A stretch of DNA of 64,000 bases, from positions 1,798,001 to 1,862,000 of the forward strand of contig CM062386.1 of assembly GCA_031310005.1 (NCBI GenBank), written 5' to 3'. Below are positions 31,301 to 58,890 of the stretch, one piece after another. Each line of letters starts with the position of its first letter. Positions within the stretch are counted from its first letter, which is position 1. Below the pieces are notes generated by a model. The model was given only the letters and a program-made list of their open reading frames with translations, was not told the origin of the DNA and made no database searches. Made by a program: the position numbers and the translations under genes. This DNA is from Dactylellina haptotyla (taxonomy: Eukaryota; Ascomycota; Orbiliomycetes; Orbiliales; Orbiliaceae).

Positions 31301-32130
31301 AACTTGGACAGCCATTTGGGTCTAGGTACATAATACTGGAATTTACAACGGCGCTTCAGGCGGCATGCAATGGGGGGGATATCAAGACGGTTTCACTGTT
31401 GCTCGACCGAGGCGCCAGAATAAACTCTCGAGATGGCCGGTCCAGTCTCGCGCTTAAAATCGCATCGTGGCGTGGGTGTTACGAGATTGTAAAATTATTA
31501 CTCGATCGCGACACAGGAGTCGATATTGATGCCGACAATAAAGGATATAGATATGGGATTGCCCTTACAAAAGCATCATTCGCAGGACACTACGAAACTG
31601 CCAGATTGCTACTCGATCGAGGCGCCGATGTCAACACTCAAGTTGACATTCATGGCACCGCGCTTCAAGCAGCCGTAAATAACATCAGACCGACAGCCAC
31701 CTACAAGATTGTCCAGCTTCTACTGAAGCATGGCGCTGATATCAATTTCCAGTCTGAAAACTTTGCTGCGGCGCTTTACGTAGCACTGAATGGAGGCATA
31801 TATGACGTTGTCGAACTACTGCTTGACTCCGGTGCCAGTGTTAAATCTTCGCGAGGCTGGTGTGTCGATCATCTCGATAGTGCATTCTCTGAAGGTCTCA
31901 ATAGAGTAGTCCAGCGTCAGATTAAGGCTCTTGATAATAATGACGACGGGGGATCCGTGATTCCGATTGAGGTTTGGAGAGGAAACCGTAGTAAGGATCC
32001 TGAGCTCGCCAGGCTAAAGCTGCTCGCTTCGAGAATCGCAAAAATGCAAGGCTACCACGCTGGCGGCGCATGTCCTAAAGTAGAGTTGCGACGGCAGTGG
32101 TGGTGGCCTGTAAATGCGGTAGCCGCTTAA
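28365..32130 (+). CDS. STAND NTPase (NLR-like): nucleoside phosphorylase-NACHT-ankyrin
   Basis: Three exons, 28365-29412, 29477-30305 and 30381-32130, giving 1208 aa. Introns of 64 and 75 nt keep frame (second junction reads [14 protein letters not shown]). Residues ~25-330 are a PNP/UDP-phosphorylase-like domain: [37 protein letters not shown], the EMEAAG motif and [12 protein letters not shown]. Members of this domain cleave or bind nucleosides; in NLRs it is proposed as the effector part. NACHT: P-loop GLTGCGKT (422-429), intact Walker [10 protein letters not shown] (517-525), sensor ILVTSRPE. Residues ~860-1130 are about seven ankyrin repeats ([39 protein letters not shown]). Likely an intracellular sensor. 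The two motifs needed for ATPase function are both intact, unlike its neighbour. Confidence 0.9.
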
Positions 32131-34776: not shown

Positions 34777-34782
34777 GGGCGG
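34777..34782 (+). repeat. Left copy of the 6 bp target-site duplication GGGCGG
   Basis: GGGCGG lies immediately outside the left terminal inverted repeat. The same hexamer in the same orientation lies immediately outside the right one at 57259-57264. Confidence 0.75.
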
Positions 34783-34864
34783 TACGGCCTGTCAGATGTT
34801 CGACATGTGTGCCAAAAAAAAAAAGCCAACCTCAATATAGCAATATATCTATTTTTTTATTTCT
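34783..34864 (+). repeat. Left terminal inverted repeat
   Basis: Begins TACGGCCTGTCAGATGTTCG and includes a run of 11 A at 34814-34824. It pairs with the reverse complement of 57177-57258: one mismatch in the outer 42 bp, about eight over 82 bp, all C/T or A/G transitions. Confidence 0.88.
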
Positions 34865-35751
34865 ATTATATATTAAAAATCAATTTATTATATTACCAAA
34901 GCGTTCTAAATAGTTTAAACACCTATTAAAGGATTAAAAATTAATAATAAATTTTTATTTTAAAAATAATTTTTTAATTATTTAAATTTACAAATATTTT
35001 ATTATATATTAAAAAATTAATAAAGTAAAAATTTCTTTAATAAAAATAATTTATTATAATTTCTAAGATTAAAATATATTATTAAAGAATTAAATTAATA
35101 AACAAAAAATTATTAAAATATAATATTAAAATAAAAAATATAAATATTTTTATAATAAAAAATTAATCAAATAAATCTGATTATTATAAAAAATTATTAA
35201 AATAATAATAATATATTTTTTTTTTTTATTAAATTAATAGCCTTTATTAATTAAAAATAATTTTTAATAAATTTAATTATATTATAAAATATATTTAAAA
35301 ATATTATTATTAAATAAGAAATAACTTAAACTAATTTTAATTATATTATATAAATTTAATTAAATAAAAGAATATTAATCAATTATAAATAAAAATATTT
35401 AATTTTTAATATTAAAATAAAAATTAAAAATTTTATTTTAATTAAAAATATTAAAAAAAATATTTATAAATTAAATTTAAAAAAGCTTACTTATTATATT
35501 AATAATAAAAATCAATAAAAAAAAAAATATATTATTATTAATATTAATAAAATTTAAATTTATAATAACTATAATAAATTTATCTTTTTTAATTTTTAAA
35601 TATATAATATTATTAATATTTATTTATATAAAATTATTTATTTTTTATTAATATTTTTAATTATACAACTATTACTATATAAAAATATTTTTTAATAATT
35701 ATTAATAAATATAATTTTCCAATTAAATTTTAAATTAATATTGTCACAGAC

Positions 35752-36273
35752 CACAAGTCTTGATAGTACAAATACCTGTACTTTGCTTTGCACTGTACTG
35801 TTCTAAGTTCTACTGCCGTACTTTATATTCATAGATATATATTATTTTTAGTATATTTGATTATAAATAATACCTACTTGTTTTATATTTTTAATTGTAG
35901 TATAATATATTACTTATATAATTGTATATAAGGATGTAAATAAATAAATATTAATATTTATATAATTATAAAATTGTATATAAGTATGTGAATATACAAG
36001 TGCCTACCTCTATATACACTAATATATATATAATATTATCATTAAAACTAATAAAGTAAGTTTATCTTCATTAATTAATTTAAATATAATTTAATATTTA
36101 ATTATCTTTACTCTATTATTATTATATATTTTAAATAAACTATTTTTGATATTTTATAGTTTTATATATATTTCTTATTAAAAAACCCAGGTATCCTAGG
36201 TAGAGAGAAAGTTTTGTATATTTTAATATTGTATATTTATACTATTATATTAGATAATATACAAAATATAACA
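35752..36273 (+). repeat. LTR copy 1 (RIP-degraded)
   Basis: Starts TGTCACAGACCACAAGTC and ends TATAACA (decayed from TGTAACA). The first 80 bases stay close to LTR copy 4 at 56120. The 3' end is heavily transition-mutated. Confidence 0.85.
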
Positions 36274-39200
36274 CTTTAACCAATCACTTTTTAGTTAAGA
36301 AAAAGTATATATATAATAATATTTTTTAATTTAAAAAATTTTATAATTTTAAAAAATGAGATTATAAACAAAAAAAACAATTATTCTTATTTGTATAATA
36401 TTTAAATGAATAAATTAAAAATTAAATCTTACAGAATTAATTAAATACTTTTATATTTATAAAGATAAAAAAAAAAAATATTACTTTTATCCCTATTAAT
36501 TCTTAAAGCCGACCTGTTTAAAAGTGAAAATAAAATTTTAATTATTAATAATAAAATCTATTTTAATATTATTATATAAGTATAGGAAGAAAAATTATAT
36601 ATATTTAGTAAAGTTATTAACAGTTTAATTAAAATTATTATCCTGGATAACAATAGATATTTATAAAATTTAAAAATAGTTATAGAAATTTTAAAAAAAT
36701 TTAAAAAAATAACTATTATAATTTAAACAATTATTAAAATTTATGAGGATGTATAAAATATGCTTAAAATAATTAGAGGAAAAACTGTATTAATTATTTT
36801 AAAATTTAATTAAGGATTAAATAAAATTTATTCTTATTTTGTGCTAAATAAGAATAAATTTTACTATAAGTTAGTTTCCAATTTCGGAAATTTAAAAAAT
36901 TTTAATAAAGATTTTAGTAATAATAATAGAGGATATTCCAATAATTTTAATGATTTTTTAATAAATTTTGCTAATTTACTCCAACTTGTTATTTGATATA
37001 AAAAAGTGAAAGTATTAAACCTTGATAAATTTGATAGCTTATTATATAAACTTGATCAATTTATCTAGTAAGCTATTACCATTTTCTATTTTTAATATTA
37101 ACAGTTTAAAAATAATAAAGATAAAATCTATTTTTTTTTCATATTTCTTACTGAAATCATTTTTTATATCTACAACTCTTATTTTATGTAATATAAAAAA
37201 AATAAAAAAAATAAAAAATAGAAAGTTAATAACAACTACGTTATTCAAACTTTTATTAATTATTTATATTTTATTAAAAGATTTAAATAATTTTATAAAT
37301 ACTAAAATAAAATTAAAAAGTTTTTATATTATTTAAAATTTATAATAAATTAAATTTATTAGAAAATATTTTTAAATTATTAATATTTATACTTTTATAA
37401 TTAAATATATAGTAGAATAATTGATTTATTATATTAAGGAAGGATTAAAACCTATATGGAGATAGGAAGTTAAGATGATTATATATAATTTGAAGATTTA
37501 ATATTATATAATTAAAGATTTGATTATAAGATTTGATGATAATTATTTTTGAGAATATAAAGTAAATATTTTATAAATCTATAATAATTATAATTGATTT
37601 TTTAATTTTTAAGGAATTATCTGAATTAATGAAATAATTAATTTAAACTTTATAATAGTAATTAAGGAAATTAATTATTTTATAATTTTAAAAATTATTT
37701 TATAATAAATTAAAATTGATTATCCTAAAATTAAAGTAATTTTTATATACTTTTTAAAATAATTATTAAAGGTTAAATAATTAATAATAATAAAATAAAA
37801 ATAACTAGATTTTAAAAACATTTTTGGACTATTTTTTATAGAATTAAGAAAATCTAAAATTAAAATTAATAATTAGAAAATTATTTTTTAAAATCTAATA
37901 AATTAATATATTATTAATATAATAAAAAAAAATATATTAAATAAAATTATTTAATCAATTAATATTTAAAGAATGTTAGAATAATTAATTAAAAATATTA
38001 TAAGAATAATATAATTATAAGGAGAATTAAGAAAGTTATAATAAATATATTAAAAAATATAAAAATAATTATTAATAATTTAAAAAAAAATTTTAGAAAA
38101 AATGGTAATTTAATATTATTTTTTATTAAATTAATAAAAAAGATTTTTTTAATACTGATTTAACTATCTTTTAAATTTTAGCTATGTTGGAAAGAATTTG
38201 AATTTTTACCCTTTTTATTGTTTTATTTGAAATATATATTTTTTAAGAATTAGAAGTTGAAGAAATTTAATAGGAAGATAATATTAAATTTATTATAAAA
38301 AAATATTATTTTAAATAAGAGAATTTTTTTTTAAAAGAAATTATATATTTATGATTTATTTAAGATTTTTTTAATAATTTTTGAGAAAAATATAAAATTT
38401 AAGAAAAAATTTATTTATAATGGATTTTAAAAATTATATATTAATATAAATTTAAAATTTATTTATAAAAAAATTACAAAATTATTCGATATTTTTTTAT
38501 TAACTTATTATATAAAAAATTAATTTAAAAAAGATTTACTAATTTTTTAATAATTAATAATATTATTTAATTATTAAAAATCGAATTTTTTATTAAATAA
38601 ATTTTTAAAGATTAAATATTGGAATTAATGGAAATTACAAAAAATGTTATACTTAGATGTTAAGGAAATTAATGTTTTAAATAATTTGCACTATTTGGCA
38701 TTGGATTTATAGAATACGGCTATTTAGTATTTTATATTGATAATAATAGAAGTTAATCTTAATTTATTAATTAATATATAAAATTATATAGAATATATTG
38801 ATATTAATTATATAAATATTCTAATATAAATTTAACCAAATTTATATATTAGAGTTGTGTGGATTAAGTAGTTGCTTTTGGTTATGAATATATGGAAAAG
38901 TGATAAAAGAGTTTTTATTAATTTTATTAATAAGTTATTTATTTTGTAATGTTTTATTATTATAGAATTAAACTAATATAAGATTATAAGATATATTAGT
39001 TATATATAAATAATCCAAATATTTTTAATATTATATTAAATATTAATATTGTAAAAATTAAGAAAGGAGGAAGGAAATATCAACTTTGCAAATTAAAATT
39101 CTTTAATTATTATTTTTATAATAAAAATTTTTATATTTATATTGATTATGTACAGGAATGGATTAATATTATTTTTATGATATATTAGAAAAAATTCTTA

Positions 39201-42200
39201 AAATTATATATTTGCAAAAGTTATCTAAATTGTAAATAATGATTTTATTATAAAAAAAATTTAAAATTCTATATATAAAATTATTAATAGAATATTTTAA
39301 TTATAATAAGTACATTGTCTAACTTTTAAAAATAAAAAGAAATAGGAGATATTTTATATTATATAGAATTTGACAATGCTAAATAGTATAATATTTTAAA
39401 TTAAAAGAGTTTTGGATAATAATGTATATTAAATTGTTTAATTTTAATTTTATTAAAAAAAGATTTAATAAAATTTTTAATTAAATTAAAAAATAATATT
39501 TTTAAATATTTTATATTATTAATAGAAATTTTATATAAGTTTTTATAAATAATAGAATAAAAATTATATATATTGTAAAAAAATATATTAAAAAATATAA
39601 TTTTTTTATATAATTTAAAAATATTATATATAATATTGTTGTTTTTGGAGAAAACCTCCTAAAAATAGTTAGGTATGAAATTAATATTATTTTTATTATT
39701 AATAAATATTTTAAAAAATGAATTATTAATATTTTTAATTTTGCTAATGATGATTTTATTTTAAAATATAATTAATTAAAAGATTATAATTTAATTATAA
39801 ATTTTTAAAATAAAATAATTAAATTTATTTATTGTAATTATTAACAAAATTTATATTAAATTTAATAAATAATTTATAAATAATTAAAAAAAGTTTATTT
39901 ATAATTTATAAAATATTTTTTAATAAAGAAATTTATTATTATTTTTGTAATAAATTTAATATTTTTAAATAAATATAATTCAAAGTTAAAGATATTATTA
40001 AAATTATTAAAATAATTTTTAAAAATATATTTTTAAAAATTTTAAAATGAATATTTAAATGAATTTAAACTTTAAAAAATTAAAAATGAAGATATATTAT
40101 TATTATTTAATAAATTTATTTATAAAATATTATTATAAAAATATTATATTTAAATTTCTACCTGTTTATGCTTATACTAAAAAAGTTCAAAATATTTAAA
40201 AAGTATATTAAAAATTTATAAAAAATATATTCATTTTTTAAAATTCCTTGTAGAATATTTGATTTTTTTATTTTTAAAAATAAAAATTATAAATTTATAT
40301 TGATTATTAAAAATTGTAATAGTTTGTTTCAAATTGATAAATTTTTAGATTAATTAATTAAAATTATTTGTTTTATTAAATTTAATATTATAATTGTTTA
40401 TTATAATTTATAGGTTGTTTTAAAAATATTTGGAAAATAGTATTTAGATATTGCTATAGGTTATTTGAATATTTAATTATATTTATAAAATTAATTAATA
40501 TCTTAGTATTTTTTAAATTTTTATAAATTATATATTAAAAACTATATTGATAAAATATGTATTATTTATTTTAATGATATATTAATTTACAATAAAAACC
40601 TTGAAAAATACTAATAATATGTCATTATAATTCTTAAAGTATTAGACAAATATAATCTTAAAATTAAATTAAAAACAAAATTTAAAGTCACAAAATATAA
40701 ATTCTTAAAAATTATTATTATAACTAAAAGAATTAAGATAGATTTTAAAAGGTTGATGTTATTTAAAAATGGTTCTGATTTTAAAATGTTAAAAATATTT
40801 AAGCCTTTTTAAAATTATACAACTATTATTAACAATTTATTAAATAATATAATTATATATTTATTATTTTTAAAATTAACAAAAATCAAAGTATATTTTA
40901 AAATAACCTAATTAAATATACACTTTTAATATATTTAAAAATTATTTTTTTAATTTTTATTTTTAAACTATATAATCCCAATTTATCTATTAAAATTAAA
41001 ATAAATATTTTTGATATTATACTAGAAATTTATCTATATCAATTATAATTAATTTAGGAATAATATCTTATTATTTATTTTTATAAATTTGATGTTATTA
41101 AATTACAATATTTTATTTATAATAAAAATTAATAGTTATTATTTAAACTTGTAAAATATAAAGTATATTTTTAAATAAAAAACTTTTATAATATATTTAA
41201 ATTATAAAAACCTTATTTTATTATTTAAAATTTTAATTAATAATAAATTCATTAATAGGAATTTATCAACCAATATAATATAAAGATTATATATTATAAA
41301 AAAAAAATTTTAAAGCTAATATTATTAATTAATAATTTAATTTAATAACTAAAATTTAATTTAATAAAAAGTTATTTTTAAAAAAAAATAATATATAATT
41401 ATTATAGTTAATAAAGTTTTTAATTTTATTTTTTATATATTAAAAAATTAATTTATAAATAATTTTAAATAAAATTATAATAAATATTTTATTATAAAAA
41501 AAATATTATTAAAAAACCCTAATATTTTAGATTATTTTATAATAGAAGAAAGATTTATTTTTTTTAAAAATCTTTTTTATATTCTTATTAAAAAATTTTA
41601 ATAATAATTTATTAAATAATATTATAATATATTAACCTATGGACACCTAGGAACTGAATGTACCTAGGAACTTTTAATTAAATTTTATTTTTGGTCTTAA
41701 ATATAATAATATATTAAATAATATATTAAAACTTATGATATATGCTATCGAAATAAACCTAATTAATATCTACCTTATAAAAAATTATAATTTTATGATA
41801 TATTTTTAGGATTATTCCAAATCATTTTATATAATTTTATATAAGGAATGTTTTCTTTAAAAAACCCTTTTATGAACATTATTTATGATAAAATTTTAAT
41901 TATTATTTGCAAATTTAGTAAAATAATAATTTTAAAATTATAAAATTTTAAATAATTTATAATTAAATTTGAATAAATTTATAATAAATAAATTTTTAAT
42001 TAATATAAATTATAATTTAAATATATTTATAACAAAAATATATTATTTATTAATAAATTCTAAAACTTAATCAAAAATTAAATTAATATTAAAATCAATA
42101 TATTAAAATCAATATTATTAGTAAAAATATACTTAAACAAATGGAGCTATAAAATAAATTATTTAAATTATTAAAATATAGTTAAAAAGTTTTTTCAACA

Positions 42201-43826
42201 TAGTATAAAACAATTAAATTAAATTATTATTATATTTTAAATTTATTTATAATATATCTAAATATTTATTTATTAAATATATATTTTATAAAGTATTTAA
42301 AGAATAAAACCCTATTGCAATCTTTTTTTTATAATATTTAAAAAATTATTTTAAAAATAAAAATATATATAAAAAATATAAAAAATTTTTATAATAATTT
42401 ATAAAAAAATTTTTAGTTTATAATAAAACATATATTATATTATTATAATCAATAATATATAAAAGCACTTCTTTTAAAAGAAAAAAATAAAATATACTTA
42501 TTTACCAAATATATTAAATAAAAAGAATAATAAAGTAAAAAATTAAATTATTAAAAATATAGACTTTTTATTATTATTAAAAAATTTAATAATAATATTT
42601 TTAAATTTAAAATCTTAAAACCTATTTAAATCTATTAATCTTTTTATATTTTGTTTTTAAAACCAACCCCTTCAAACTTAAAAAAAGACTCAAAAAAAGA
42701 AGAATTAAAATATAAAAATTATATAAAATATAAATTTAAAAAAATCTTCAATAAATCTAACGAAAATAATAAATATTTAATTAGATGATCACTACTGTAT
42801 AAACCACAAAATAATAAATAAATCCCCAAACATAACCTACCTTCTGTCACTATTCAAATATACCTTTAATAAAAAACTATAGCATAACCTATAAAAAGAG
42901 AACATAAACAATCAAAAAAAATTTAATTTTAAAGTTAATAATTAACAAAATTACTTATAACTTTTTGATAAATTTTTATTATTTTTTTTTTAATAAAAAC
43001 TATATTAGAATTATTTTAAATTTTAATTTATTTAATTATCTTTTTAACCTTTTTTTATTTTGTTAATTATTCTAATATATTTTCTTTATAAATAATAATT
43101 TTTATATATTTTAATTTAAATTGATATAATTTTTTTCTTTTTTAAATAATTTTTATTTAAAGCTCCTTCTACTTTTTTTTTAATTTTTTTAATTTTTTTT
43201 TATAATTTTTTATTTAATAATTTAATTATTCTATTATAAGGAATCAGCTAAATCCATCTAATAGAATTAAAAAGCTATTTATAAAAATTTGTTAAATAAT
43301 TTCTATACCTATTTTAAATATAAATAGAATAATTAATATTTTTTAATATAATAATATAAAGGTAATTGTTTTGAGTATAATATTTATAAGGAAGAAAAGT
43401 AAAAATATTAAATAATTTAATTCAATTAATTTAAAAATTTTAACATTGATGGGAGGATTGTTTTGATTTTTTTTAATGTTTATCTATTAATATAATTATT
43501 TTTAGAAATATATTGATTGTTTGTATTTATAAAAATATTTTATAGTTTAAATTTTATTTTATTATTTTGATTTAATTATTATATTTTTATATATATATGA
43601 TTATATAAGTATTTACCTAAAAATAAACCCTATATTGTGATATAGATTATTATTTTATATAGATTTAATTTTAATATAAAAATTAATAATATATAAAATT
43701 GAATTTTTGTATAAAAATAATAATAATATATTATTACTTTATATTTAGCTATTAATATTTATATAAAATTCTAAATTCTATGAAAAAGCCGCCTATATGG
43801 AAGCTTATTTTAAAAAAAAAAAATAG
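36274..43826 (+). mobile_element. Degenerate Ty3/Gypsy retrotransposon interior, copy 1
   Basis: Lies between LTR copies 1 and 2. All frames are broken, with Asn/Ile/Lys/Leu bias from C-to-T and G-to-A change. The clearest remnant is reverse transcriptase at about 40250-40830: a strand reading CIIYFNDILIYNKNLEKY corresponds to the usual YxDDILIYS core, with both flanking Asp/Ser positions changed to Asn, then LDKYNLKIKLK and a TKRIK-like motif. An integrase-like strand (LIIICKFSKII) is seen near 41890-41930. A 104-codon frame at 37022-37336 is a by-product of AT bias but is shared by copy 2. Confidence 0.78.
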
Positions 43827-44358
43827 TATTATAGATTATAAATTTTAATAATATAAATATTTATATTTTGTTTTGCATTGTATTGTTTTGAGTTTTATTA
43901 TTACACTTTATATTTACAAATATATATTATTTTTAATATATTTAATTATAAATAATATCTACCTATTTTGTACCTTTAACTATAATATAATATATTGTTT
44001 ATATAATTATATATAAGAATGTGAGCAAACAAATATTAATGTTTATATAATTATAAGATTATATATAAATATATAAATATGTGAGTGTTTATTTTTATGT
44101 ACATTAATATGTATATAATATTATTATTAGAATTAATAAAGTAGGTTTATTTTTATCAATCAATTTAAATATAATTTAGTATTTAATTATTTTTATTTTA
44201 TTATTATTATATATTCTAGGTAAGCTATCTTTAATATTTTATAACTTTATACATACTTTTTACTAAAAAACCTAAGTATCTTAGGTAGAGAGAGAGTTTT
44301 ACATATCTTAGTATTGTATATTCGTACTGTTACATTGGGTAGCGTACGAAGTGTAACA
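43827..44358 (+). repeat. LTR copy 2 (RIP-degraded)
   Basis: Aligns with copies 1 and 4 over its length. It starts TATTATAGATTATAAA (decayed from TGTCACAGACCACAAG) and ends in the preserved GGGTAGCGTACGAAGTGTAA CA. Confidence 0.85.
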
Positions 44359-47300
44359 TTTTATTAATTTGTTTTAATCTATTATTTAATATAAAAAAAT
44401 AAAAATATTAGATTTTGATAAATTTAATAATTTATTATATAAATTTGATTAATTTATTTAGTAAGTTGCCACCATTTTTTATTTTCAATATTAATAATTT
44501 AAAAATAATCAAAATAAAATTTATTTTTTTTTTATATTTTTTATTGGAATTATTTTTTATACTTATAATTTTTATCTTATATAATATGAAGAAAATAAAA
44601 AAAATAAAAAATAAAAAATTAATAATAATTATATTATCTAAATTTTTATTAATTATTTATATTTTATTAAAAAACTTAAATAATTTTATAAATATTAAAA
44701 TAAAATTAAAGAAGCCTTTTATATTATTTAAAATTTACAACAAATTAAATTTATTAAAAAATATTTTTAAATTATTGATATTTATACCTCTATAATTGAA
44801 TATATAATAGAATAATTAATTTATTATATTAAAAAAAAATTAAAATTTATATAAAAATAGGAAGTTATTAAAATAATTATATATAATTTAAAAATTTAAT
44901 ATTATATAATTAAAGATTTGATTATAAAATTTAACAATAATTATTTTTAAAAATATAAAATAAATATTTTATAAATTTATAATAATTATAATTAATTTTT
45001 TAATTTTTAAGGAAATCATTTAAATTAATAAAATAATTAATTGGGATTTTGTAATAATAGTTAAAAAAATCGATTATTTTATAATTTTGGAAATTATTTT
45101 ACAATAAATTAAAATTGATTATTTTAGAACTAAAGTAATTTTTTATATATTTTTTAAAATAACTATTAAAGATTAAATAATTAATAATAATAAAATAGAA
45201 ATAATTGGATTTTAAAGAATATTTTTGGACTATTTTTTATGGAATTAGGAAAGATTTAAAATCGAAATTAGCGATTTAGGAATTGTTCTCCAAAATCTAA
45301 TAAATTAATATATTATTAGTATAATAAAAAAAAATATATTAAACAAAACTATCCAATTAATTAATATTTAAAAAATATTAGAATAATTAATTAAGAGATA
45401 TTATAAAAATAATATAATTATAAAAAACATCAAAAAAACTATAACAAATATATTAAAAAATATAAAAATAATTATTAATAATTTGAAAAAAATTTTTTAA
45501 AAAAATGGTAATTTAATATTATTTTTTATTAAATTAATAAAAAAAATTCTTTTAATATTAATTTTATTATATCCCGAATTTTAATTGCGTTAGAAAGAAT
45601 TCAAATTCTTACTCCCCCTATTATTTTATTTAAAATATATATTTTTTAAAAATCAGAAACCAAAAATATTTAACAAAAAAATAAAGTCAAATTTATTATA
45701 AAAAAATACCATTTTAAATAGGAAAATTTTTTTTTAAAAAAAATAATATATTTACAATATATACAAAATCTTTTAAATAATTTATAAAAAAAATATAAAA
45801 TTTAAAAAAAAATTTGTTTATAATAAATTTTAAAAACCTTATATCATTATAAATTTAAAATTTATTTTTAAAAACATTATAAAACTATGTAAAATCAGAT
45901 TACAAAATCCGCATCTACACCAATTAACTTTTTAATAAAAAAAAAAATCCATAATTAATTATTTTTTAAATCCAACAATATTATTAAAAACTAAATTTAA
46001 AAAAAATTATTTATTATTTTAAAAATAAACATTATATGTTAAAAAAATTAATATTTTAAATAATTTGTTTTATTTAACATTAGATTTATAAAACATAATT
46101 ATTTAATATTTTATATTAATAATAATAGGAACTGATTTTAATTTATTGATTAATATGCGGAATTTTATGAAACACATCAATACCAATTATATAAACATCC
46201 TAACATAAATCTTATTAAATTTATATATTAAAATTATGTGAACCAAATAATCACTTTTAATTATAAATATATAAAAAAATAATGAAGGAGTTTTTACCAA
46301 CTTTATTAATAAATTATTTATTTTATAATATTTTATTATTATAAAATTAAATTAGTATAAGATTATAAAATATATTAATTATATACAAAAAATTATAATA
46401 TTATTAATATTATATTAAATATTAATATTATAGAAATTGAAAAAAAAAAAAAAAAATATTAATTTTATAAATCAAAATTTTTTAATTATTATTTTTATAA
46501 TAAAAATTTTTATATTTATATTAATTATACATAAGAATAGACTAATATTATTTTTATAACACATTAAAAAAACCTAAAATTATATATTCATAAAAATTAC
46601 CTAAATTATAAATAATAATTTTATTATAAAAAAATTTAAAACTTTATATTTAAAACTGTTAATAAAATATTTTAATTATAATAGGTACATTACTTAGTTT
46701 TAAAAATAAAAAAATAGAAAATATTTTATATTATATAAAATTTAATAATATTAAATAATATAATACTTTAAATTAAAAAGCTTTAAATAATAATACACAT
46801 TAAATTATTTAACTTTAACTTTATTAAGAAAAGATTTAATAAAATTTTTAATTAAATTAAAAATAATATTTTTAAATATTTTATATTATTAATGGAAATC
46901 TTATATAAGTTTTTATAAATAATAGAACAAAAAATTATATATTATAGAAAAATATATTAAAAATATAATTTTTTATACAACTTAAAAATATTATATATAA
47001 TATTGTTATTTTTAAAAAGTTTTTAAATATAGTTAAATATAAAACTAACATTATTCTCATTATTAATAAATATTTAAAAAATAAATTATTAACATCTTTA
47101 ATCTTGTTAATAACGATTTTATTTTAAAATATAACTAATTAAAACCATAACTTAATCATAAATTTTAAAATAAAATAATTAAATTTATTTATTGTAATTA
47201 TTGATAGAATCTATAATAAATTTAATAAATCATTCATAAGTAATTAAAAAAATTTAAGTAATTAAAAAATTTATCTACAATTTATATAAAATTTTTAAAT

Positions 47301-50300
47301 AAAGAAATCTATCACCACTCTTATAATAAATTTAATATTTTTAAATAAATATAATTAAAAACTAAAAACATCATTTAAATTATTAAAAAATCATTAAAAA
47401 TACTTTATTTTTTAAAATTTTGAAATAAATTTTTAAATAAATCCAAATTTTTAAAAAAATCAAAAATAAAAATATATTATTTTTATTTAATAAATTTATT
47501 TATAAAATATTATTATAGGAAGATATTATTTTTAAATTTTTATTTATTTATATTTATATTTAAAAAAAATTTGAAACTCTTAAGGAATATATTAAAAAAA
47601 ATTTACAAAAAAAATATATTTAACTTTTAAAATTTTTAATTAAATATTTAATTTTTTTCATCTTTAAAAAAAATAAAAAATTATAAATTTGTATTAATTA
47701 TTAAAATTTAAATATTATTATTATTAAAGATTATAATAACTTATTACAAATTAACAAATTTTTAAATTGTCTTATTAAAGCCACTCGCTTTATTAAACTC
47801 AATATTATTATTATTTACCACAATTTACAAATCACCCTAAAAAATATTTAAAAAATAGTATTTAAATATCACTATAATTTATTTAAATACTTAATTATAC
47901 CTATAAAATTAATTAATATTTTTGTATTTTTTTAAATTTTTATAAATTATATATTAAAAAATTATATTAATAAAATATATATCATTTATTTAAATGATAT
48001 ATTAATTTATAATAAAAATTTTGAAAAACATTAACAATATGTTATTATTATTTTTAAAATATTAGACAAATATAATTTTAAAATTAAATTAAAAAAAATA
48101 AAATTTAAAATTATAAAATACAAATTTTTTAAAACCATTATTATTATTTAAAAAATTAAAATAAATTTTAAAAAAATTAATATTATTTAAAAATAATTTT
48201 AATTTTAAAATATCAAAAACATTTAAGCCTTTTTAAACTTATATAATTATTATTAATAATTTATTAAATAATATAGCCATATATTTAATATTTTTTTAAA
48301 ATTAATAAAAATTGGAGTACATTTTAAAATAACTTTTAACCAAATACACATTTTTAACACACTTAAAAAATTATTCCTCTCAACCTCTATCCTTAAATTA
48401 TACAATTTTAACCTATTTATTAAAATTAAAATAAATATTTTTAATATTATATTAAAAGTTTATTTATATTAATTATAATTAAATTAAGAATAGCATTTTA
48501 TTACCTATCTATTTTATAAGTTTGATATTATTAAATTACAATATTTTATTTATAATAAAAAATTAATAATTATTGTTTAAGTTTGTAAAATATAGAAAAT
48601 ATATTTTTAAACAAAAAAATCTTTTATAATATATTTGAATTATAAAAATTTTATTTATTTTTTATTTTTTAAAAATCTCAGCAAACAATAAGTTTATTAA
48701 TAAAAATTTATCAATTAATATAATATAAAGATTATATATTATAAAAAAAAAAAAAACTTTGAAGTCAACACCATTAATTAACAACCAAACTTAATGGTTG
48801 GAATCCAATTTAACAAAAGAACCATTTTTAAAAAAAAATAATACACAACTATTTTAATCAATAAAGTTTTTAACTTTATTTTTTATATTTTAAAAAATTA
48901 ATTTGTAAAAAATTTTAAACACAACTATCAAAAATATCCTATAATAAAAAAAATATTATTAAAAGATTTTAATATTTTAAATTATTTTATAATAAAAAAA
49001 AATTTATTTTTTTCAAAAACCTTTTTTACATCCCTACCAAAAAATTTTAATAATAATTTTTTAAACAATATTATAATACATTATCCCATAAATATTTAAA
49101 GATTAAATATACCTAGGAATTTTTAACTAAATCTTATTTTTAACCCCAAATATAATAACATATTGAATAATATATAAAAATTTATAATATATACTATTAA
49201 AATAAATTTAATTAATATTTATTTTATAAAAAGTTATAATTTTATAATATATTTTCAAAATTATTCCAAATTATTTCTTATAATTTTATATAAGGAATGT
49301 CTTTTTTAAAAGATTTTTTTACAAACACTATTTATGATAAAATTCTAATTATTACTTGTAAATTTAGTAAAGTAATAATTTTAAAACCATAAAATTTCAA
49401 ATAATTTATAACAAAATTTAAATAAATTTATAATAAACAAATCTTTAACTAATATAAATTATAATTTAAATATATTTATAACAAAAATATATTATTTACT
49501 AGTAAATTCTAAAATTTAATTAAAACCAAACTAATATTAAAATTAATATTGTTAATAAAAGATATATTTAAATAAATAGAATTATAAAACAAATTATTTA
49601 AATCATTAAAATATGGTTAAAAATTTTTTAATATAATATAAAATAATTAAGTTAAATTATTATTATACTTTAAATTTATTTATAATATGTTTAAATATTT
49701 ATTTATTAAATATATATTTTACAAAGTACTTAGAAAATGGAACTTTATTATAATATTATTTTTATAATACTTAAAAAATTATCCAAAAATAAAAACATAT
49801 ATATAAAAAATTTTTACAACAATTTGTAAAAAATTTTTAATTTATAATAAAATATATATCACATTATTATAATTAGTGATATATGAAAGTATTTTTTAAA
49901 AAAAATAAAGTATACCTGTTTGTTAAATATATTAAATAAAAAAAATAATAAAATAAAAACTAAATTATTAAAATATAGATTTTTTATTATTATTAAAAAA
50001 TTTAATAATAATATTTTTGAATTTAAAATTTTAAAATTTATTAGAATTTATTAATTTTTTTATATTTTATTTTTAAAACTAGCTTTTTAAGGTTTAAAAG
50101 AAAACTTAAAAAACAAAGAACTGGAATATAAAAATTATATAGAATATGAAGTTATAAGAATATTTAATAGATTTAATAAAAATAATAAATATTTAATTAA
50201 ATAATTATTATTTTATGGATTATAGGATGATTTATAAGAATTAGAGGGTAATATTTTCCTAGAGTTAATTCAAAATTATTTTTAGAAAAAGATATTAGAA

Positions 50301-51305
50301 TTTTCAAATAAATGATTTAAAAAAAGATTTAGAAAAACTATATAATATTTAATATATTTAGGTATAATCAAATAAGGAAATTTTTTTGAATTAATTATAT
50401 TTAAAAAACTTGGTTTATGTATTATATTTGTTCGATCTTTTGTTTAAGGAAAGTAATGTTATTATTTAAAAATTGTTGAAAATTAATGTTATTCGATAAT
50501 AATTTTAAATCCAATTCTTGAAGTTGTTTGAAACCTTTTTGTTTTTTAATAGTAGATTTTTCTTTTTTAAAAGTTGATTTTGTTTTCTTATTTATTGAAT
50601 TCATTTTTTTTTGTAAACATACTATTTTCGCCTGAACTTAAACTATTTTAATAAATAATAAAATTTAAATATCTTCTACCTCATATAATTCCACCCATTT
50701 TTAATTTAGTTACCAAAAAATATAATCCACTATAAGATAATTAACTTTATTAACAATATAAAAATTACAAAAACTTACTAATTACTTCCTAAATATAATT
50801 ACAATTATAATAAATATAATTAAAATATCTTTTATTAAAGAATTTCATTATATAAAAAAAATTATACTTCTTATAAAATTTATAAATTATTTGAAATTTT
50901 TTCTTTTATGTTTTAATATAATAAGTTTAATTTTAATACTATTTAATTAATAATTTTATATAATAATTTATTAATATTATTATTTTTAAAAATATATTAA
51001 TTATTTATATTTATAAAAATATTTTATAATTTAAATTTTATTTTACTATTTTAATTTGATTACTCTATTTTTATATATGTATGATTATATAAATATTTAC
51101 TTTAAAACAAATTTTATATTATAATATAAATTATTGTTTTATATAAATTTAATTTTAATATAAAAATTTATAATATATAAAATCAAATTTTATATAAAAA
51201 TAATAATAATATGTTATTATTTTATACTTAATTATTATTATTTATATAGAATTTTAAATTTTATAAAAAGCCACTTATATGAAAATTTATTTTAAAAAAA
51301 AATAA
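44359..51305 (+). mobile_element. Degenerate Ty3/Gypsy retrotransposon interior, copy 2
   Basis: Collinear with copy 1 at an offset of about 7.39 kb (37022 corresponds to 44415). About 0.7 kb next to the 5' LTR is missing relative to copy 1. Reverse transcriptase relic at about 47690-48240. More decayed than copy 1. Near the 3' end, 50405-50640 is an island with less A/T that carries an antisense frame. Confidence 0.75.
50422..50604 (-). other. Antisense 60-codon Lys-rich frame in a less-degraded island
   Basis: Encodes a Lys/Gln/Asn-rich, coiled-coil-like peptide starting MNSINKKTKSTFKKEK and ending FLKQKIEQI. The surrounding 230 bp is less A/T-rich than the rest of copy 2. Whether it is a real antisense gene, a fragment of another element or chance is unclear. 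Confidence 0.25.
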
Positions 51306-51814
51306 TATTATAAATTATAAATCTTAATAGTATAAATATCTATATTTTATTTTATATATTATATTATTCTAATTTTTATTATTATATTTTATATTTATAA
51401 ATATATATTATCTTTAATATATTTAATTATAAAGCTTATTTATTTATTTAATACTTTAAATTATAATATAATATATCTCATGGATTATTGTTTATTATGG
51501 ATTATAAATTATAAACCACAATTTGCTATAATTTATAATCCACTATAAATGTATTAGACTATTCTTATATATAAAACTATTTTTAAGATTAATAAAATGT
51601 TTTTATTTTTATTAATTAACTTAAATATAATTCAATATTTAATTATTTTTATTTTATTATTATTATATACTTTAAATAAACTATTTTTAATATTTTATAA
51701 TTTTATATATATTTCTTATTAAAAAATTTAAATATTTTAAGTAAAAAGAAAGTTTTATATATCTTAGTATTGCATATTCGTACCGTTACATTGGGTAGCG
51801 TACGAAGTGTAACA
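51306..51814 (+). repeat. LTR copy 3 (RIP-degraded)
   Basis: Starts TATTATAAATTATAAA and ends in GGGTAGCGTACGAAGTGTAA CA. It contains a segment around 51478-51560 not shared with copies 1 and 2 that includes a perfect inverted repeat. Confidence 0.82.
51499..51541. repeat. Perfect 15 bp inverted repeat (hairpin) inside LTR copy 3
   Basis: GGATTATAAATTATA at 51499-51513 and its exact reverse complement at 51527-51541, separated by 13 bases. Confidence 0.85.
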
Positions 51815-52133
51815 TACTTATATAATTATAAAATTATATATAAATATATAAATATGTAAATATTTATTTTTATATATATTAATATATATATAATATTATT
51901 ATTAAAATTAATAAAATAAATTTTAACTTTATTAATTAACTTAAATATAATTTAATATTTAATTATTTTTATTTTATTATTATTATATACTCTAAGTAAA
52001 TTATTTATAATATTTTATAACTTTATATATATTTTTTATTAAAAAACCCAAATATCCTAAGTAAAAAAAGAGTTTTACATATCTTAGTATTGTATATTCA
52101 TATTGTTATATTGGGTAGCGTATAAAGTGTAAT
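51815..52133 (+). repeat. 5'-truncated LTR fragment directly after LTR copy 3
   Basis: Begins within the LTR (equivalent to about 35913 in copy 1) and ends GTGTAATA, a transition-mutated version of GTGTAACA. Two LTR ends in tandem indicate nesting or recombination between elements. Confidence 0.75.
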
Positions 52134-55100
52134 ATATTAATTTTATTAATAAATTATTTATTTTATAATATTTTATTATTATAAAATTAAATTAATATAA
52201 GATTATAAGATATATTAATTATATATAAATAATCCAAATATTATTAATATTATACTAAATATTAATATTATAAAATTAAAAAAAAAAAATGTTAATTTTG
52301 TGAATTAAAATTTTTAATTATTATTTTTATAATAAAAATTTTTATACTTATACTAATTATATATAAAAATAAACTAATATTATTTTTATAATATATTAAA
52401 AAAAAATTTTAAAACTATATACTTATAAAAATTATTTAAATTATAAATAATGATTTTATTATAAAAGAAATTTAAAATTTTATATTTAAAATTATTAATA
52501 AAATATTTTAGTTATAATAGATATATTGTTTAGTTTTTAAAAATGGGAAAAATAAAAATATTTTATATTATATAAAATTTAATAATATTAAATAATATAA
52601 TATTTTAAATTAAAAAATTTTAAATAATAATATATATTAAATTATTTAATTTTAGTTTTATTAAAAGGATTTAATAAAATTTTTAATCAAATTAAAAATA
52701 ATATTTTTAAATATCTTATATTATTAATGGAAATTTTATATAAATTTTTACAAACAATAAAATAAAAATTATATATATTATAAAAATATATTAAAAATAT
52801 AATTTTCTTATATAATTTAAAAATATTATATATAATATTGTTATTTTTGGAGAAAACCCTTTAAATATAATTAAATATAAAACTAACATTATTTTTATTA
52901 TTAATAAATATTTAAAAAACAAATTATCAATATTCTTAATTTTATTAATAACAATTTTATCTTAGAATATAACTAATTAAAAACTATAATTTAATTATAA
53001 ATTTTAAAAATAAAATAATTAAATTTATTTATTACAATTATTAATAAAATCTATAATAAATCTAACAAATCATTTATAAATAATTAAAAGAAATTTATTT
53101 ACAATTTATAAAATATTTTTTAATAAAAATCTATTATTATTTCTACAATAAACTTAATATTTTTAAGTAAATATGGTTTAAAATTAAAAATATTATTAAA
53201 ATTGTTAAAAATTATTAAAAATATTTTATTTTTAAAATTTTAAAATGGATTCCTAAATGGATTTGAATCTTTAAAAAATTAAAAATAAAATATATTATTA
53301 TTATTTAATAAATTTATTTATAAAATATTATTATAAAAATATTATTTTTAAATTCTTATTTATTTATATTTATATTAAAAAGAACTTAAAGTATTTAAAA
53401 ATATATTAAAAAAATTGTAAAAAGGGTATATTTGTTTTTAAAGTTCTTGGTAGGATATTTAATTTTTTTATTTTTAAGAAAATAAAAATTATAAATTTAT
53501 ATTAATTATTTATTAAAGTTTTAATGCTATTATAATTAAAGATTATAATAATTTATTTTAAATTAATAAATTTTTAAATTAATTAATTAAAATTATTTAT
53601 TTTATTAAATTTAATATTATTATTATTTATTATAATTTATAAATTATTTTAAAAATGTTTAGAAAATAATTTTTAAATATTATTATAGTTTATTTAAATA
53701 TTTAATTATATTTATAAAATTAATTAATATTTTTGTATTATTTTAAATTTTCATAAACCATATATTAAAAATTATATTAATAAAATATATATTATTTATT
53801 TTGATAATATATTAATTTATAATAAAAATTTTGAAAAATATTGATAATATATTATTATTATTTTTAAAATATTAAACAAATATAATTTTAAAGTTAAATT
53901 AAAAATAAAATTTAAAATTATAAAATATAAATTTTTAGAATTATTATTATTATTTAAAAATTAAAATAAATTTTAAAAATTAATATTATTTAAAAATAAT
54001 TTTAATTTTAAAATATTAAAAATATTTAAATTTTTTAAACTTATACAACTATTATTAATAATTTATTAAATAATATAATTATATATCTAATGTTTTTTAA
54101 AATTAATAAAAATTAGAGTATATTTTAAAATAATTTCTAACCAAATATATATTTTTAATATATTTAAAAATTATTTTTTTAATTTTTATTTTTAAATTAT
54201 ACAACTCTAATTTATTTATTAAAATTAAAATAAATATTTTTAATATTATATTAAAAATTTATCTATATTAATTATAATTAAATTAAAAATAGTATTTTAT
54301 TACCTATCTATTTTATAAGTTTAATATTATCAAATTACAATACCCCATTTATAATAAAAATTAATAATTATCATTTAAATAAATTTATAAAACATAAAAA
54401 TATATTTTTAAATAAAAGAATTTTTATAATATATTTAAATTATAAAATTTTATTTATTTTTTATTTTTAAAAATTTTAATAAATAATAAATCCACTAATA
54501 AGAATTTATTAATTAATATAATATAAAAATTATATATTATAAAAAAAGAGAATTTTAGAATTAACACTATTAATTAATAATTTAACTTAATAATTGAAAT
54601 TTAATTTAATAAAAGAATTATCTTTAAAAAAATAATATATAATTATTTTTATTAATAAAGTTCTTAATTTTATTTTTTATATCCTAAGAAATTAATTTAT
54701 AAAAATTTTAAATAAAATTATAATAAATATTTTATTGTAAAAATATTATTAAAAATTTTAATATTTTAAATTATTTTATAATAAAAGAAAGATTTATTTT
54801 TTAAAATCTTTTTACATTTTTATTAAAAATTTTAATAATAATTTATTTAATAATATTATAATATATTAATTTATAAATATTTTAATATTAAATATATTTA
54901 AAAACTTTTAATTAAATTTTACTTTTAACCCTAAATATAATAATATATTAAATAATATATTAAAATTTATAATATATACTATTAAAATAAATTTAATCAA
55001 TATTTATTTTATAAAAATTATAATTTTATAATATATTTTTAAAATTATTTTAAATAATTTTATACAATTTTATATAAAAATATTTTTTAAAAACCCTTTA

Positions 55101-56119
55101 TAAACACCATCTATAATAAAGTTTTAATCATTATTTACAAATTTAATAAAATAACAATTTTAAAATTATAAAATTTCAAATAATCTATAATAGAATTTAA
55201 ATAAATTTATAATAAATAAATTTTTAATTAATATAAATTATAATTTAAATATATCTATAACAAAATACACTATTTATTAATAAATTTTAAAATTTAATTA
55301 AAACCAAACTAATACCAAAATTAATATTATTAACAAAAACACATTTAAATAAATAAAATTACAAAATAAATTATTTAAACTATTAAAATATAATTAAAAG
55401 TTTCCTTAATATAGTATAAAATAATTAAATTAAATTACTATTATATTTTAAATTTATTTATAATATATTTAAATATTTATTTATTAAATATATATTTTAT
55501 AAAATATTTAAAAATGGAATTTTATTATAATACTACTTTTATAATACCTAAGGAAATTATCTTAAAAACAAAAAAACATATTAAAAATATAAAAAATTTT
55601 TATAATAATTTATAAAAAAATTTTCAATTTATAATAAAATATATATTATATTATTATAATCAATAACATATAAAAGTATCTTTTTTAAAAAAAAAAAATA
55701 AAGCATACTTATTTACTAAATATATTAAATAAAAAAAATAATAAAACAAAAAACTAAATTATTAAAAATATAAATTTTTTATTATTATTAAAAAATTCAA
55801 TAATAATATTTTTAAATTTAAAATTTTAAAATTTATTTAAATTTATTAATCTTTTCATATTTTATTTTTAAAATCAGTCCCTTCAAACTTAAAAAAAAAA
55901 CCCAAAAAATAAAAAATTAAAATATAAAAATTATACAAAATATGAATTCGAAAAAATCCTTAATAAACCTAATAAAAATAATAAATATTTAATCAAATAA
56001 TTATTATTATATAAACCACAAAACAATGAATAGATCTTTAAACATAACCTACTTCCTATTATTATTCAAATCTACCTTCAATAAAAAATTATAATATAAT
56101 TTATAAAAAAAAAATATAA
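52134..56119 (+). mobile_element. Degenerate, 5'-truncated Ty3/Gypsy interior, copy 3
   Basis: Starts at sequence equivalent to about 38930 of copy 1 and runs directly into LTR copy 4. It lacks the ~0.9 kb that copies 1 and 2 have between the last coding relic and the 3' LTR. Reverse transcriptase relic at about 53490-54040. Confidence 0.75.
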
Positions 56120-56667
56120 TGTCACAGACCACAAGTTTTGACAGTACAAATACCTGTACCTTGCTTTGTGCTATACTGTTCTAAGTTCTACTACCATACT
56201 TTATATTTATAAATATATATTATTTTTAGTATATTTATTTATAAAGTTTATATATTTATTTAATATACCATACTATGGCATAATATAAATATTTATTTAT
56301 TTGTTTTTTAATTCAAATGAGTAATATAAAAATTTTAAAAAATTTGTTTATTTACATATTTTATTTACATAAGTATATAAAAAGAATAAATTTTCTAAAG
56401 AATATTTTATAATATTTATATATATAAAATTATCACTAAAATTAATAAAATATTTTTATTTTCATTAATTAACTTAAATATAATTTAATATCTAATTATT
56501 TTTATTTTATTATTATTATATATTTTAAGTAAACTATCTTCAATATTTTATAATTTTATACATATTTTTTACTAAAAGATCTAGGTATTTTAAATAGAGA
56601 AAGAGTTTTACATATCTTAGTATTGCATATTCGTACCGTTACATTGGGTAGCGTATGAAGTGTAACA
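56120..56667 (+). repeat. LTR copy 4
   Basis: TGTCACAGACCACAAGTTTT ... GCGTATGAAGTGTAACA, with canonical TG...CA ends. It is the best preserved copy at both ends. A segment at about 56245-56410 differs from the other copies. Confidence 0.88.
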
Positions 56668-56919
56668 CTTTAATATAAAAATTTAATAATATATATTAAA
56701 ATATTTTAAATAAAATAATACATAAATTTTTAAAATAACTATTTAAAAATTAAGAGTTATAAAATTTATAAATTAATTAATCCCCTAATTTAGATATAAA
56801 ATTTAAATATTTTTAAAATAACTATATTTTTTATAATAAATTCCTAATTAAATAATATAAAAAAAATAAAAAAAATAGTAATTTAAAATTTGCAAAAATA
56901 TTAATTCAAAATAAAAGAA

Positions 56920-56980
56920 ATAAAATAAATAAAATAAATAAAATAAATAAAATAAATAAAATAAATAAAATAAATAAAAA
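56920..56980. repeat. AAAATAAAT microsatellite
   Basis: About six to seven copies of a 9-mer A/T unit in the right arm of the TIR-bounded element. Confidence 0.8.
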
Positions 56981-57176
56981 AAATATATTAAATAAAGCTA
57001 ATATACTAATAATTAATTTTATAAATAATAATAAAGCCCCTCCTATTTATAATAATATAAAAAAAAAAAAAAATAAACAAAATATAAAATAATAATAAAG
57101 AAATTTAATTAAAAAAAATTAATTATTTAATTTTTAAATAATAGTTGGAATTAAAGGGATTATATATTTATTTAAA

Positions 57177-57258
57177 AGAGATAAAAAAATAAATATATTA
57201 CTGTGTTAAGGTCGGCTTTTTTTTTTTGGCACACATATCGAACATCTGACAGGCCGTA
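57177..57258 (-). repeat. Right terminal inverted repeat
   Basis: Reverse complement matches 34783-34864. The outer end reads CATCTGACAGGCCGTA on the plus strand. The 11 T run at 57217-57227 mirrors the 11 A run on the left. Confidence 0.88.
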
Positions 57259-57264
57259 GGGCGG
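57259..57264 (+). repeat. Right copy of the 6 bp target-site duplication GGGCGG
   Basis: Directly abuts the right inverted repeat and lies 72 bp before the ATG at 57337. Confidence 0.75.
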
Positions 57265-57336: not shown

Positions 57337-58890
57337 ATGTCCCAAGCACCCGGCCTCCCCGTCCTCCCCGCCGTCGAGCAGGCTCTGAAACCCTTCATCA
57401 AGTCTCCGTCCGAGATAACCGCCATACGATGTAACCTAAATTCGACCCTAGAATCCTTAATCGCGTCCTCCGCCTCCGCAACCCCATCCCTCACCTCCCA
57501 ACGCGCCGTCCGCTGCCTCACCGGCACGCGAAAAGCGTACTACAATGCCGCCGTCGAAAACCTTCGACTCCGCAAACAATGGGCGGATCTAGCCTCCGAT
57601 ATCAAACTACCCCTCGAACCGCCCTCGCAAGCTGCAGACCCAAAGCCGACCCCGCAGGCAGCACCACCGCACACGCATTCACGCTCCCACTCGCGAAAGA
57701 TCAGTATGGGTCAGGCGTTACTCCCAACGGACTGGACGCAGGTCTACGACCAGGTGCTCGAGTTGCGGCGGGTATTCTCCCAGCTTACTATCTTGAATAA
57801 ATACCAACAGCGGATTACGGCGCTAGCACAGCAGCAGAACCAGCCGTTGACGGGGATATTTGCGGATCATAACCAAAAGTTACCCGCTGCACCGTTGGGT
57901 GGGCCGTTAGCGAAAGAGCAGACGTTTAGTACGGCTGGCGGGGGTGGGGCGGGTGCGGAGGATGATATATTATTACCACTTGAGAAGGCCGTGGTAGACG
58001 CGAAGGCGAGGTTGGAGAAGGAGAGGAAGCTGTTGCAGGAGATAAAGGAGTCTACGAAGGGTATTGATATGGAGAGTCTGCCTGAAGAGGTTAAGACTGC
58101 AGGGATGGTTGCTGCGAAGGGGGAGTTGGAGATGTGGCTTGATGAGCAACTTAGACTCGCTGGAGAGGAGAGTAAGACTCCGAGGAAGGAGAGGAAAGAT
58201 GGGGATTTAGTCGGTGGTGAAGTCTGGGAAGGGGATGAGAAGTTCAATTTCGATAAGTTACTGGAGGAGATTAAGAAAGGGTATGAAGATTACGTGGAGA
58301 GTAGGGAGAAGATGCTGCACGCGTTCGTGCTCGCTATGCAGCCTGTCAAGAAGGAAATGATTCCGCCCAAGATGGGGAAGGATAGGAATAACAGTATTCC
58401 CGGCGGAGGGCTGGCTGGTGGCGACATGCCGCAGTTATTGGGACTTATGGACGAACTGGGTCACTCTAGGGACCGGACAAACGAGCTCTCAGACCTGATC
58501 AATACTATGAAGGAGGGAAGTGCCAGTGCGGGGAAGGATCTAGAAAATACAATGGCGAGGCTTAGAAGTGAGAGCCAGCTTATTGATAATTTTGGAGGCG
58601 GTGTAGCTATCCGTCCGAGGGGTGTGACAGAGGAAAACATGAGTCCGTTCCACGGTAGCGTGGAGCTAGCAAAGACATGGGAACTGGCTGCAGCAGAAGC
58701 GGAGCGGAATCTCAGCGATGAAGTTGGCAAGGGGGCGACATATGCACAGGATAAGCTCGCAGAAGTCGAACAGATGCTAGAGCAGCTCAAGAACATACTT
58801 CCCGAAGAGGAACGGTCTTCAACCCGAAGAAGAAGAGATGTGAGCTGGCGAGGATTGAAGGGCAATGTTGGATTCGACGACGCACTATAG
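57337..58890 (+). CDS. Coiled-coil protein of unknown function
   Basis: Intronless, 517 aa. Start MSQAPGLPVLPAVEQALKPF. Residues ~1-90 are helical (Arg/Leu-rich, TRKAYYNAAVENLRLRKQW), then a Pro/Gln/His linker. Residues ~140-330 are mostly coiled coil (VYDQVLELRRVFSQL, DAKARLEKERKLLQEIKEST, FDKLLEEIKKGYEDYVESREKM). Residues ~340-500 are a second helical part (GLMDELGHSRDRTNELSDL, TYAQDKLAEVEQMLEQLKNIL). No catalytic motif, signal peptide or membrane segment. The layout suggests a structural subunit of a cytoskeletal, kinetochore or vesicle complex, but I do not recognise the family. The AT-rich element ends 79 bp upstream, so its promoter must be very short or lie in the element. Confidence 0.78.
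   Translation: MSQAPGLPVLPAVEQALKPFIKSPSEITAIRCNLNSTLESLIASSASATPSLTSQRAVRCLTGTRKAYYNAAVENLRLRKQWADLASDIKLPLEPPSQAADPKPTPQAAPPHTHSRSHSRKISMGQALLPTDWTQVYDQVLELRRVFSQLTILNKYQQRITALAQQQNQPLTGIFADHNQKLPAAPLGGPLAKEQTFSTAGGGGAGAEDDILLPLEKAVVDAKARLEKERKLLQEIKESTKGIDMESLPEEVKTAGMVAAKGELEMWLDEQLRLAGEESKTPRKERKDGDLVGGEVWEGDEKFNFDKLLEEIKKGYEDYVESREKMLHAFVLAMQPVKKEMIPPKMGKDRNNSIPGGGLAGGDMPQLLGLMDELGHSRDRTNELSDLINTMKEGSASAGKDLENTMARLRSESQLIDNFGGGVAIRPRGVTEENMSPFHGSVELAKTWELAAAEAERNLSDEVGKGATYAQDKLAEVEQMLEQLKNILPEEERSSTRRRRDVSWRGLKGNVGFDDAL

Follow-up and report, generated by a model that had tools for sequence, protein, structure and literature searches.

Transposons of the IS3EU (IS3EU/GingerRoot) superfamily are characterized by TA..TA termini and by target-site duplications that are usually 6 bp in length (PMC10045372), and in rust fungi they have been described with 6-bp duplications, inverted repeats longer than 30 bp and ends of the form TAYGG..CCRTA (PMC12730594). 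Ascomycete cases are few in the literature that we found, namely a family of Tuber indicum (PMC12730594) and Styx of Zymoseptoria, whose repeats are 36 bp long, whose target duplications are 6 bp and whose transposase is IS3EU-like (PMC10853768). Here we analysed an AT-rich block of 22,476 bp and 9.8% GC (34783-57258) that lies between two copies of GGGCGG in the ascomycete Dactylellina haptotyla, within a 64,000-nucleotide stretch of contig CM062386.1 (positions 1,798,001 to 1,862,000; hereafter the window, to whose first letter all coordinates without a contig prefix refer). We consider it likely that this block is a nested relic, in which an IS3EU-type transposon received long terminal repeat (LTR) retrotransposons and the whole was then altered by mutation resembling repeat-induced point mutation (RIP).

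The edges of the block are a real transposon boundary with well preserved ends. The left terminal inverted repeat (34783-34872, forward strand) starts with TACGG and reads TACGGCCTGTCAGATG from 34783, immediately after the first GGGCGG (34777-34782). The right repeat (57169-57258, reverse strand) is its reverse complement, with final letters CATCTGACAGGCCGTA at 57258 and CCGTA at its very end, and is directly followed by the second GGGCGG (57259-57264) in direct orientation on the forward strand. When the window was compared with itself, the two repeats paired in inverted orientation over 90 nt at 89% complementarity, with 10 differences among the 90 positions, of which the eight in the outer 82 bp were all transitions and the two further in were transversions. 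An initial annotation, made from the letters of the window, had reported inverted repeats and direct GGGCGG copies at both edges, and its coordinates proved exact; its statement that the repeats differ by transitions only is true for the 82 bp that it quoted, beyond which the two transversions sit. Its description of the block as having defined ends is likewise borne out by the repeats, the direct 6-bp duplication and a drop in GC at both edges. Measured in 40-bp bins, GC starts at 0.53 on either side and, within ~80 bp of the ends, falls to 0.10 at the left edge and 0.12 at the right; the bins displayed deeper inside have values of 0 to 0.2. The bases just beyond the 6-bp match differ between the two sides, and by our own arithmetic the probability that a perfect 6-bp duplication arises by chance at a fixed offset is about 1 in 4,096.

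Searches with the repeats were carried out in the window and in the 39.8-Mb genome (11 contigs). The 16-bp tip, with up to three mismatches allowed, matched the window at two places, both exactly, where 0.12 were expected and 1 of 100 shuffles gave two matches. Genome-wide, the 29-bp outer repeat with up to three mismatches was found at exactly two places, the ends of the block, which differ there by one mismatch and lie in inverted orientation, while the reversed control gave 0 matches; an 81-bp repeat query also returned these two ends only. A search of the whole genome for other copies of the outer repeat, as suggested in the initial annotation, turned up no further facing pair. With a 22-bp query a third place appeared at C1:1472593 (three mismatches), which we rejected as it looks like coding DNA and its 3-kb locus contains no exact inverted partner of 12 bases. 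The first 16 letters of the repeat had no match in the literature text searched.

The initial annotation had taken the block for one insertion, a view that its interior does not support. Inside an outer element of ~1.55 kb sits a second component, a 20.9-kb LTR retrotransposon stack, and the arms of the outer element resemble neither the stack nor each other to any clear degree. Self-comparison revealed that 35742-56667 (20,926 of the 22,476 bp) is made up of a single LTR retrotransposon family, stacked head to tail as four LTR-sized copies, one truncated copy and three internal units, all on the forward strand. Retrotransposon A (35742-44358; 8,617 bp) is complete. Its LTR1 (35742-36273; 532 bp) starts TGTCACAG and ends ATAACA, its internal region spans 36274-43826, and its LTR2 (43827-44358) differs from LTR1 at 110 of 532 sites, all of them transitions, with 0 transversions and an ungapped alignment. 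Because the two LTRs are free of transversions and gaps relative to each other, we read A as one complete element that has changed by transitions only. The LTR pair is bounded by TG..CA; some LTR starts inside the block are mutated. Internal region B (44359-51299) lacks the first 691 bp of the internal region of A and is ~82% identical to A, with transitions at 14.2% and transversions at 4.2%. It is followed by LTR3 (51300-51814, its start being approximate) and by LTR4 (51815-52134), which is truncated at its 5' end and corresponds to LTR positions ~213 to the end. Internal region C (52135-56119), also 5'-truncated, is without the first 2.6 kb of the internal region and is 86-87% identical to A and B where aligned, and LTR5 (56120-56667) completes the stack. 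Compared with LTR1, both LTR3 and LTR5 carry about 7.5% transversions, so they probably stem from other insertions.

The same family is found across the genome. An LTR query gave at least 44 matches with E <1e-76 on 10 of the 11 contigs, a lower bound for which 40 of 212 candidates were scored; the count includes the query and two others of the block, and in a few cases adjacent matches may be parts of a single LTR. Unit B contains an RVT_1 match (47771-48109, forward strand; E 1.5e-4, under the curated cut-off). When 26 RVT_1 places in the genome were compared with 27 LTR places, seven lay no more than 9 kb from a same-strand LTR and 19 did not. In four of the seven, the RVT_1 match lay 4,554-4,589 bp from the LTR start, with three of those four over the cut-off, and the remaining distances were 4,752, 5,538 and, for unit B of the block, 3,944 bp. 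The RVT_1 match and this recurrent spacing in related copies suggest that the inner family is probably Ty3-like, with a reverse transcriptase of the RVT_1 type. An integrase located downstream of the reverse transcriptase sets Ty3 apart from other orders; the rve integrase profile gave no match inside the block. Elsewhere the LTR family forms dense clusters, at 2.35-2.40 Mb of C2, 2.19-2.26 Mb of C3, 1.64-1.74 Mb of C5, 2.53-2.58 Mb of C8 and 1.04-1.14 Mb of C9, which may be centromeres; the block in the window is a smaller island of the family, apart from the main cluster of C8.

What remains of the outer element is its two arms, the left at 34783-35741 (interior GC 4.8%) and the right at 56668-57258 (interior GC 7.1%), on either side of a stack with 9.9% GC. 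Genome-wide searches with the arms gave many matches of 64-72% identity besides the terminal repeats, the best outside the block scoring 239 bits (left arm) and 174 bits (right arm). Since the left arm reaches 201 bits against its own opposite strand, we regard scores of this size as background that very AT-rich DNA produces. No other copy of the arms rose above this background at the sensitivity of a DNA search, which strongly mutated relatives, or unmutated ones, could escape. No transposase family was matched in the 12 read-through frames of the arms, whose GC is 5-7%; a single frame produced six matches, all weak and to families of other kinds, the best at E 0.04 and under the cut-off. We also considered whether the right arm is a fourth, truncated retrotransposon unit, as CTTTAA directly after LTR5 equals the six bases after LTR1. 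This candidate was rejected, though weakly: when the right arm was compared with the 5' internal region of the family over 30, 60 and 120 bp, the score was reached by 34, 70 and 24, respectively, of 300 controls drawn at random from the block.

The ends of the outer element can be compared directly with those of described families. GGGCGG flanks both sides of this one insertion, the termini TACGG..CCGTA fall within TAYGG..CCRTA, and the inverted repeats, at 90 bp and 89%, are longer than 30 bp. The initial annotation, whose options did not include IS3EU, had offered an unassigned DNA transposon family among them, a label that is needless because a 6-bp duplication together with TAYGG..CCRTA is the published fungal IS3EU signature. 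Judged by this structure, the outer element appears to be a relic of the IS3EU type that is probably either gutted or non-autonomous. The assignment rests on the termini and the duplication since no transposase was found. IS3EU elements encode an IS3-like DDD/E transposase, but a non-autonomous member would have no transposase gene of its own. Genome-wide, the rva_4 profile, which we take to cover IS3EU, gave one match, below the cut-off (E 1.38). The three rve matches of the genome were considered as an intact autonomous partner and rejected, as their domain order, judged by eye, is that of Ty1/copia.

Several observations weigh against the reading of the block as an IS3EU relic filled with retrotransposons. 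The genome searches yielded no IS3EU-like transposase, and none could be read in the arms. With a single copy found, the 6-bp length rests on one insertion, and since duplications of 4-10 bp are given for the IS256/MuDR group (PMC10045372), a MULE is not set aside by length alone. The stack is flanked by AATAT on the left and CTTTA on the right and so has no 5-bp duplication, whereas two of three other copies of the LTR family show one (by eye); the stack is therefore not a single clean insertion and was probably rearranged, and part of the outer DNA transposon may have been lost from the locus. Finally, in 22 comparisons of the arms with the stack and with each other, each with 30 Markov-generated controls, z ranged from -1.2 to 2.2, with six of the 22 at 1.8 or above, and in two of them the left arm against 38000-40000, on both strands, beat all 30 controls. 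These elevated scores we take as shared AT-rich composition.

The initial annotation had remarked that the ends do not fit the usual patterns, which stands for hAT (8 bp) and MULE (8-11 bp), as the match stops at 6 bp, and very probably also for Tc1/mariner. Other superfamilies with 6-bp duplications would include hAT6, Dada, a MULE with short duplications or an undescribed family. The long 90-bp inverted repeats would suit a MULE, and Dada duplications are 6-7 bp; hAT ends usually begin with CAG or TAG, and we know of none among hAT6, Dada and MULE that ends in TAYGG..CCRTA. Dada targets multicopy RNA genes. Such superfamilies keep some weight, because 6-bp duplications are described for some hAT families (PMC12730594) and a range of 4-10 bp is described for IS256/MuDR (PMC10045372), and we consider an origin from one of them unlikely. 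The termini themselves would also allow a Tc1/mariner- or pogo-like element, with a TA duplication and repeats starting CGGCC, in which case GGGCGG would be a coincidence or the target would have been GGGCGG-TA-GGGCGG. Among fungal elements, those that duplicate TA are more common than those with 6-bp duplications, and since TA, a palindrome, stands at both ends of the element, one copy cannot separate a TA duplication from a 6-bp one. An element of this kind needs a chance 6-bp direct match, at about 1 in 4,096, and the complete termini, TACGG..CCGTA, agree with the signature of IS3EU, so that we rate it as quite unlikely.

Polinton/Maverick or Starship-type giant elements, both raised in the initial annotation, fare much worse. 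A length of 22.5 kb would suit a giant element and a 6-bp duplication a Polinton (PMC10045372). A Polinton would contain pPolB and a retroviral-type integrase gene, and a Starship would have a DUF3435 tyrosine recombinase at one end, but 20.9 of the 22.5 kb are LTR retrotransposon, and this content largely refutes the giant-element reading, which we regard as very improbable. DNA_pol_B_2 had no match genome-wide, which argues only weakly against a Polinton as the search was without a positive control, being equally empty in 14 control genomes. The sole DUF3435 matches found, which would speak for a Starship, are an adjacent pair on another contig (C2:2776818-2778130). Equally improbable, in our estimation, is that the inverted repeat is a product of chance at the borders of an AT-rich island and no transposition took place. 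A single copy of the element was found in the genome, but the 29-bp inverted match with one mismatch is found nowhere else in 39.8 Mb and in 0 controls, and it comes with a 6-bp duplication and the termini of a known family.

We read the mutation of the block as a saturated RIP-like process and not as a new one. Published thresholds for RIP are a product index above 1.15 and a substrate index of at most 0.75, and a few averages given for large RIP-affected regions are 20.8-23.2% GC (PMC7882544). The block, with a product index of 1.04 and a substrate index of 0.87, reaches neither threshold, and none of 37 AT-rich loci elsewhere (mean GC ~8.5%) passes both; this comparison covered 39 loci, of which two were not AT-rich and at least three pairs overlap, with the block's own loci left out. 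Among the cytosines that remain in the block, CpC is enriched 3.5-fold over expectation and CpA is mildly depleted (0.75). The fraction of C sites that read T in the other copy was 0.80 for CA, 0.72 for CC, 0.89 for CG and 0.76 for CT between units, and 0.59, 0.50, 0.58 and 0.57, respectively, between 23 LTRs, such that C-to-T change is nearly flat across sequence context. Four DNA methylase matches were found in the genome, at three places (C7:1112643, C5:386181 and C4:1061393). The edges of the mutated DNA coincide with the repeats and do not trail into the flanks, which suggests that the arms were once themselves a repeat.

Taken together, the order of events would be transposon, retrotransposons, mutation. 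An IS3EU-type cut-and-paste transposon would have entered GGGCGG, 72 bp upstream of an open reading frame (ORF), mobilized by a transposase that recognized both inverted repeats and cut the target with a 6-bp stagger. Copies of the genome-wide, probably Ty3-like LTR family would then have inserted into this DNA transposon, and recombination may have rearranged them into the head-to-tail order LTR1-A-LTR2-B-LTR3/4-C-LTR5. Heavy RIP-like C-to-T mutation would have struck both arms as well as the stack but spared the unique flanks and the outermost ~40 bp at either end, with a former second copy of the outer element as the presumed trigger in the arms. It is conceivable, although we think it doubtful, that an ascomycete IS3EU family was driven to one copy by RIP-like mutation, which left its ends nearly unmutated around 22.5 kb of foreign DNA. 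If so, a related transposase could still act on the composite, as has been described for degenerate Styx copies (PMC10853768). What appeared to be a giant unassigned transposon thereby becomes a readable sequence of events, and a likely IS3EU relic is added to the ascomycete cases. The 22.5 kb are a composite of two already known kinds of element, and inverted repeats and a target duplication around an AT-rich island are no proof that the island is a single element.

The ORF next to the block (57337-58890, forward strand; 517 aa) has its ATG 72 bp beyond the right duplication and gave no Pfam match at E 0.001 and no match to a Protein Data Bank (PDB) sequence at E 0.01. On the other side of the block, ORFs at 28365-32130 match, in order, PNP_UDP_1, NACHT/NPHP3_N and ankyrin repeats, with a weak PDB match to adenosylhomocysteine nucleosidase, and probably represent one intron-split NOD-like receptor gene of the fungal PNP-NACHT-ANK type. 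Elsewhere in the genome, the rve matches lie at C1:4666743-4667081, C9:2382765-2383103 and C3:2329934-2330167, in elements that by eye are Ty1/copia-like and not AT-saturated; the C9 copy has ~1,000 stop-free codons and those on C1 and C3 are split into shorter frames, which suggests that these elements arrived more recently than the saturated LTR family. The two adjacent DUF3435 matches at C2:2776818-2778130 are stop-free and probably belong to one gene, a candidate Starship captain or derelict. RVT_1 matches within ~12 kb of contig ends (C1:1190, C5:3740874, C6:3494604, C7:3585491 and C9:11771) are perhaps subtelomeric non-LTR elements.

RIP-mutated LTR clusters form AT-rich islands and centromere-like clusters in Pezizomycotina. 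The inner stack resembles them in its probably Ty3-like family, its tandem or nested copies and its transition-dominated divergence, and differs from them in the very low GC content of the block (9.8%) and in RIP indices that stay short of the standard thresholds. The outer element shares with the described fungal IS3EU elements (PMC12730594, PMC10045372) the TACGG..CCGTA termini, repeats of more than 30 bp and the 6-bp duplication; in contrast to them, it has no transposase gene that we could see, was found in one copy, has arms of ~5-7% GC and is filled with retrotransposons. Styx, which is tied to IS3EU through its DDD/E transposase, is unlike the outer element in being ~7.9 kb long, multi-copy and active in Z. 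tritici and in having 36-bp repeats (PMC10853768). Common to both by description are 6-bp duplications, conserved terminal repeats and a fungal host (PMC10853768).

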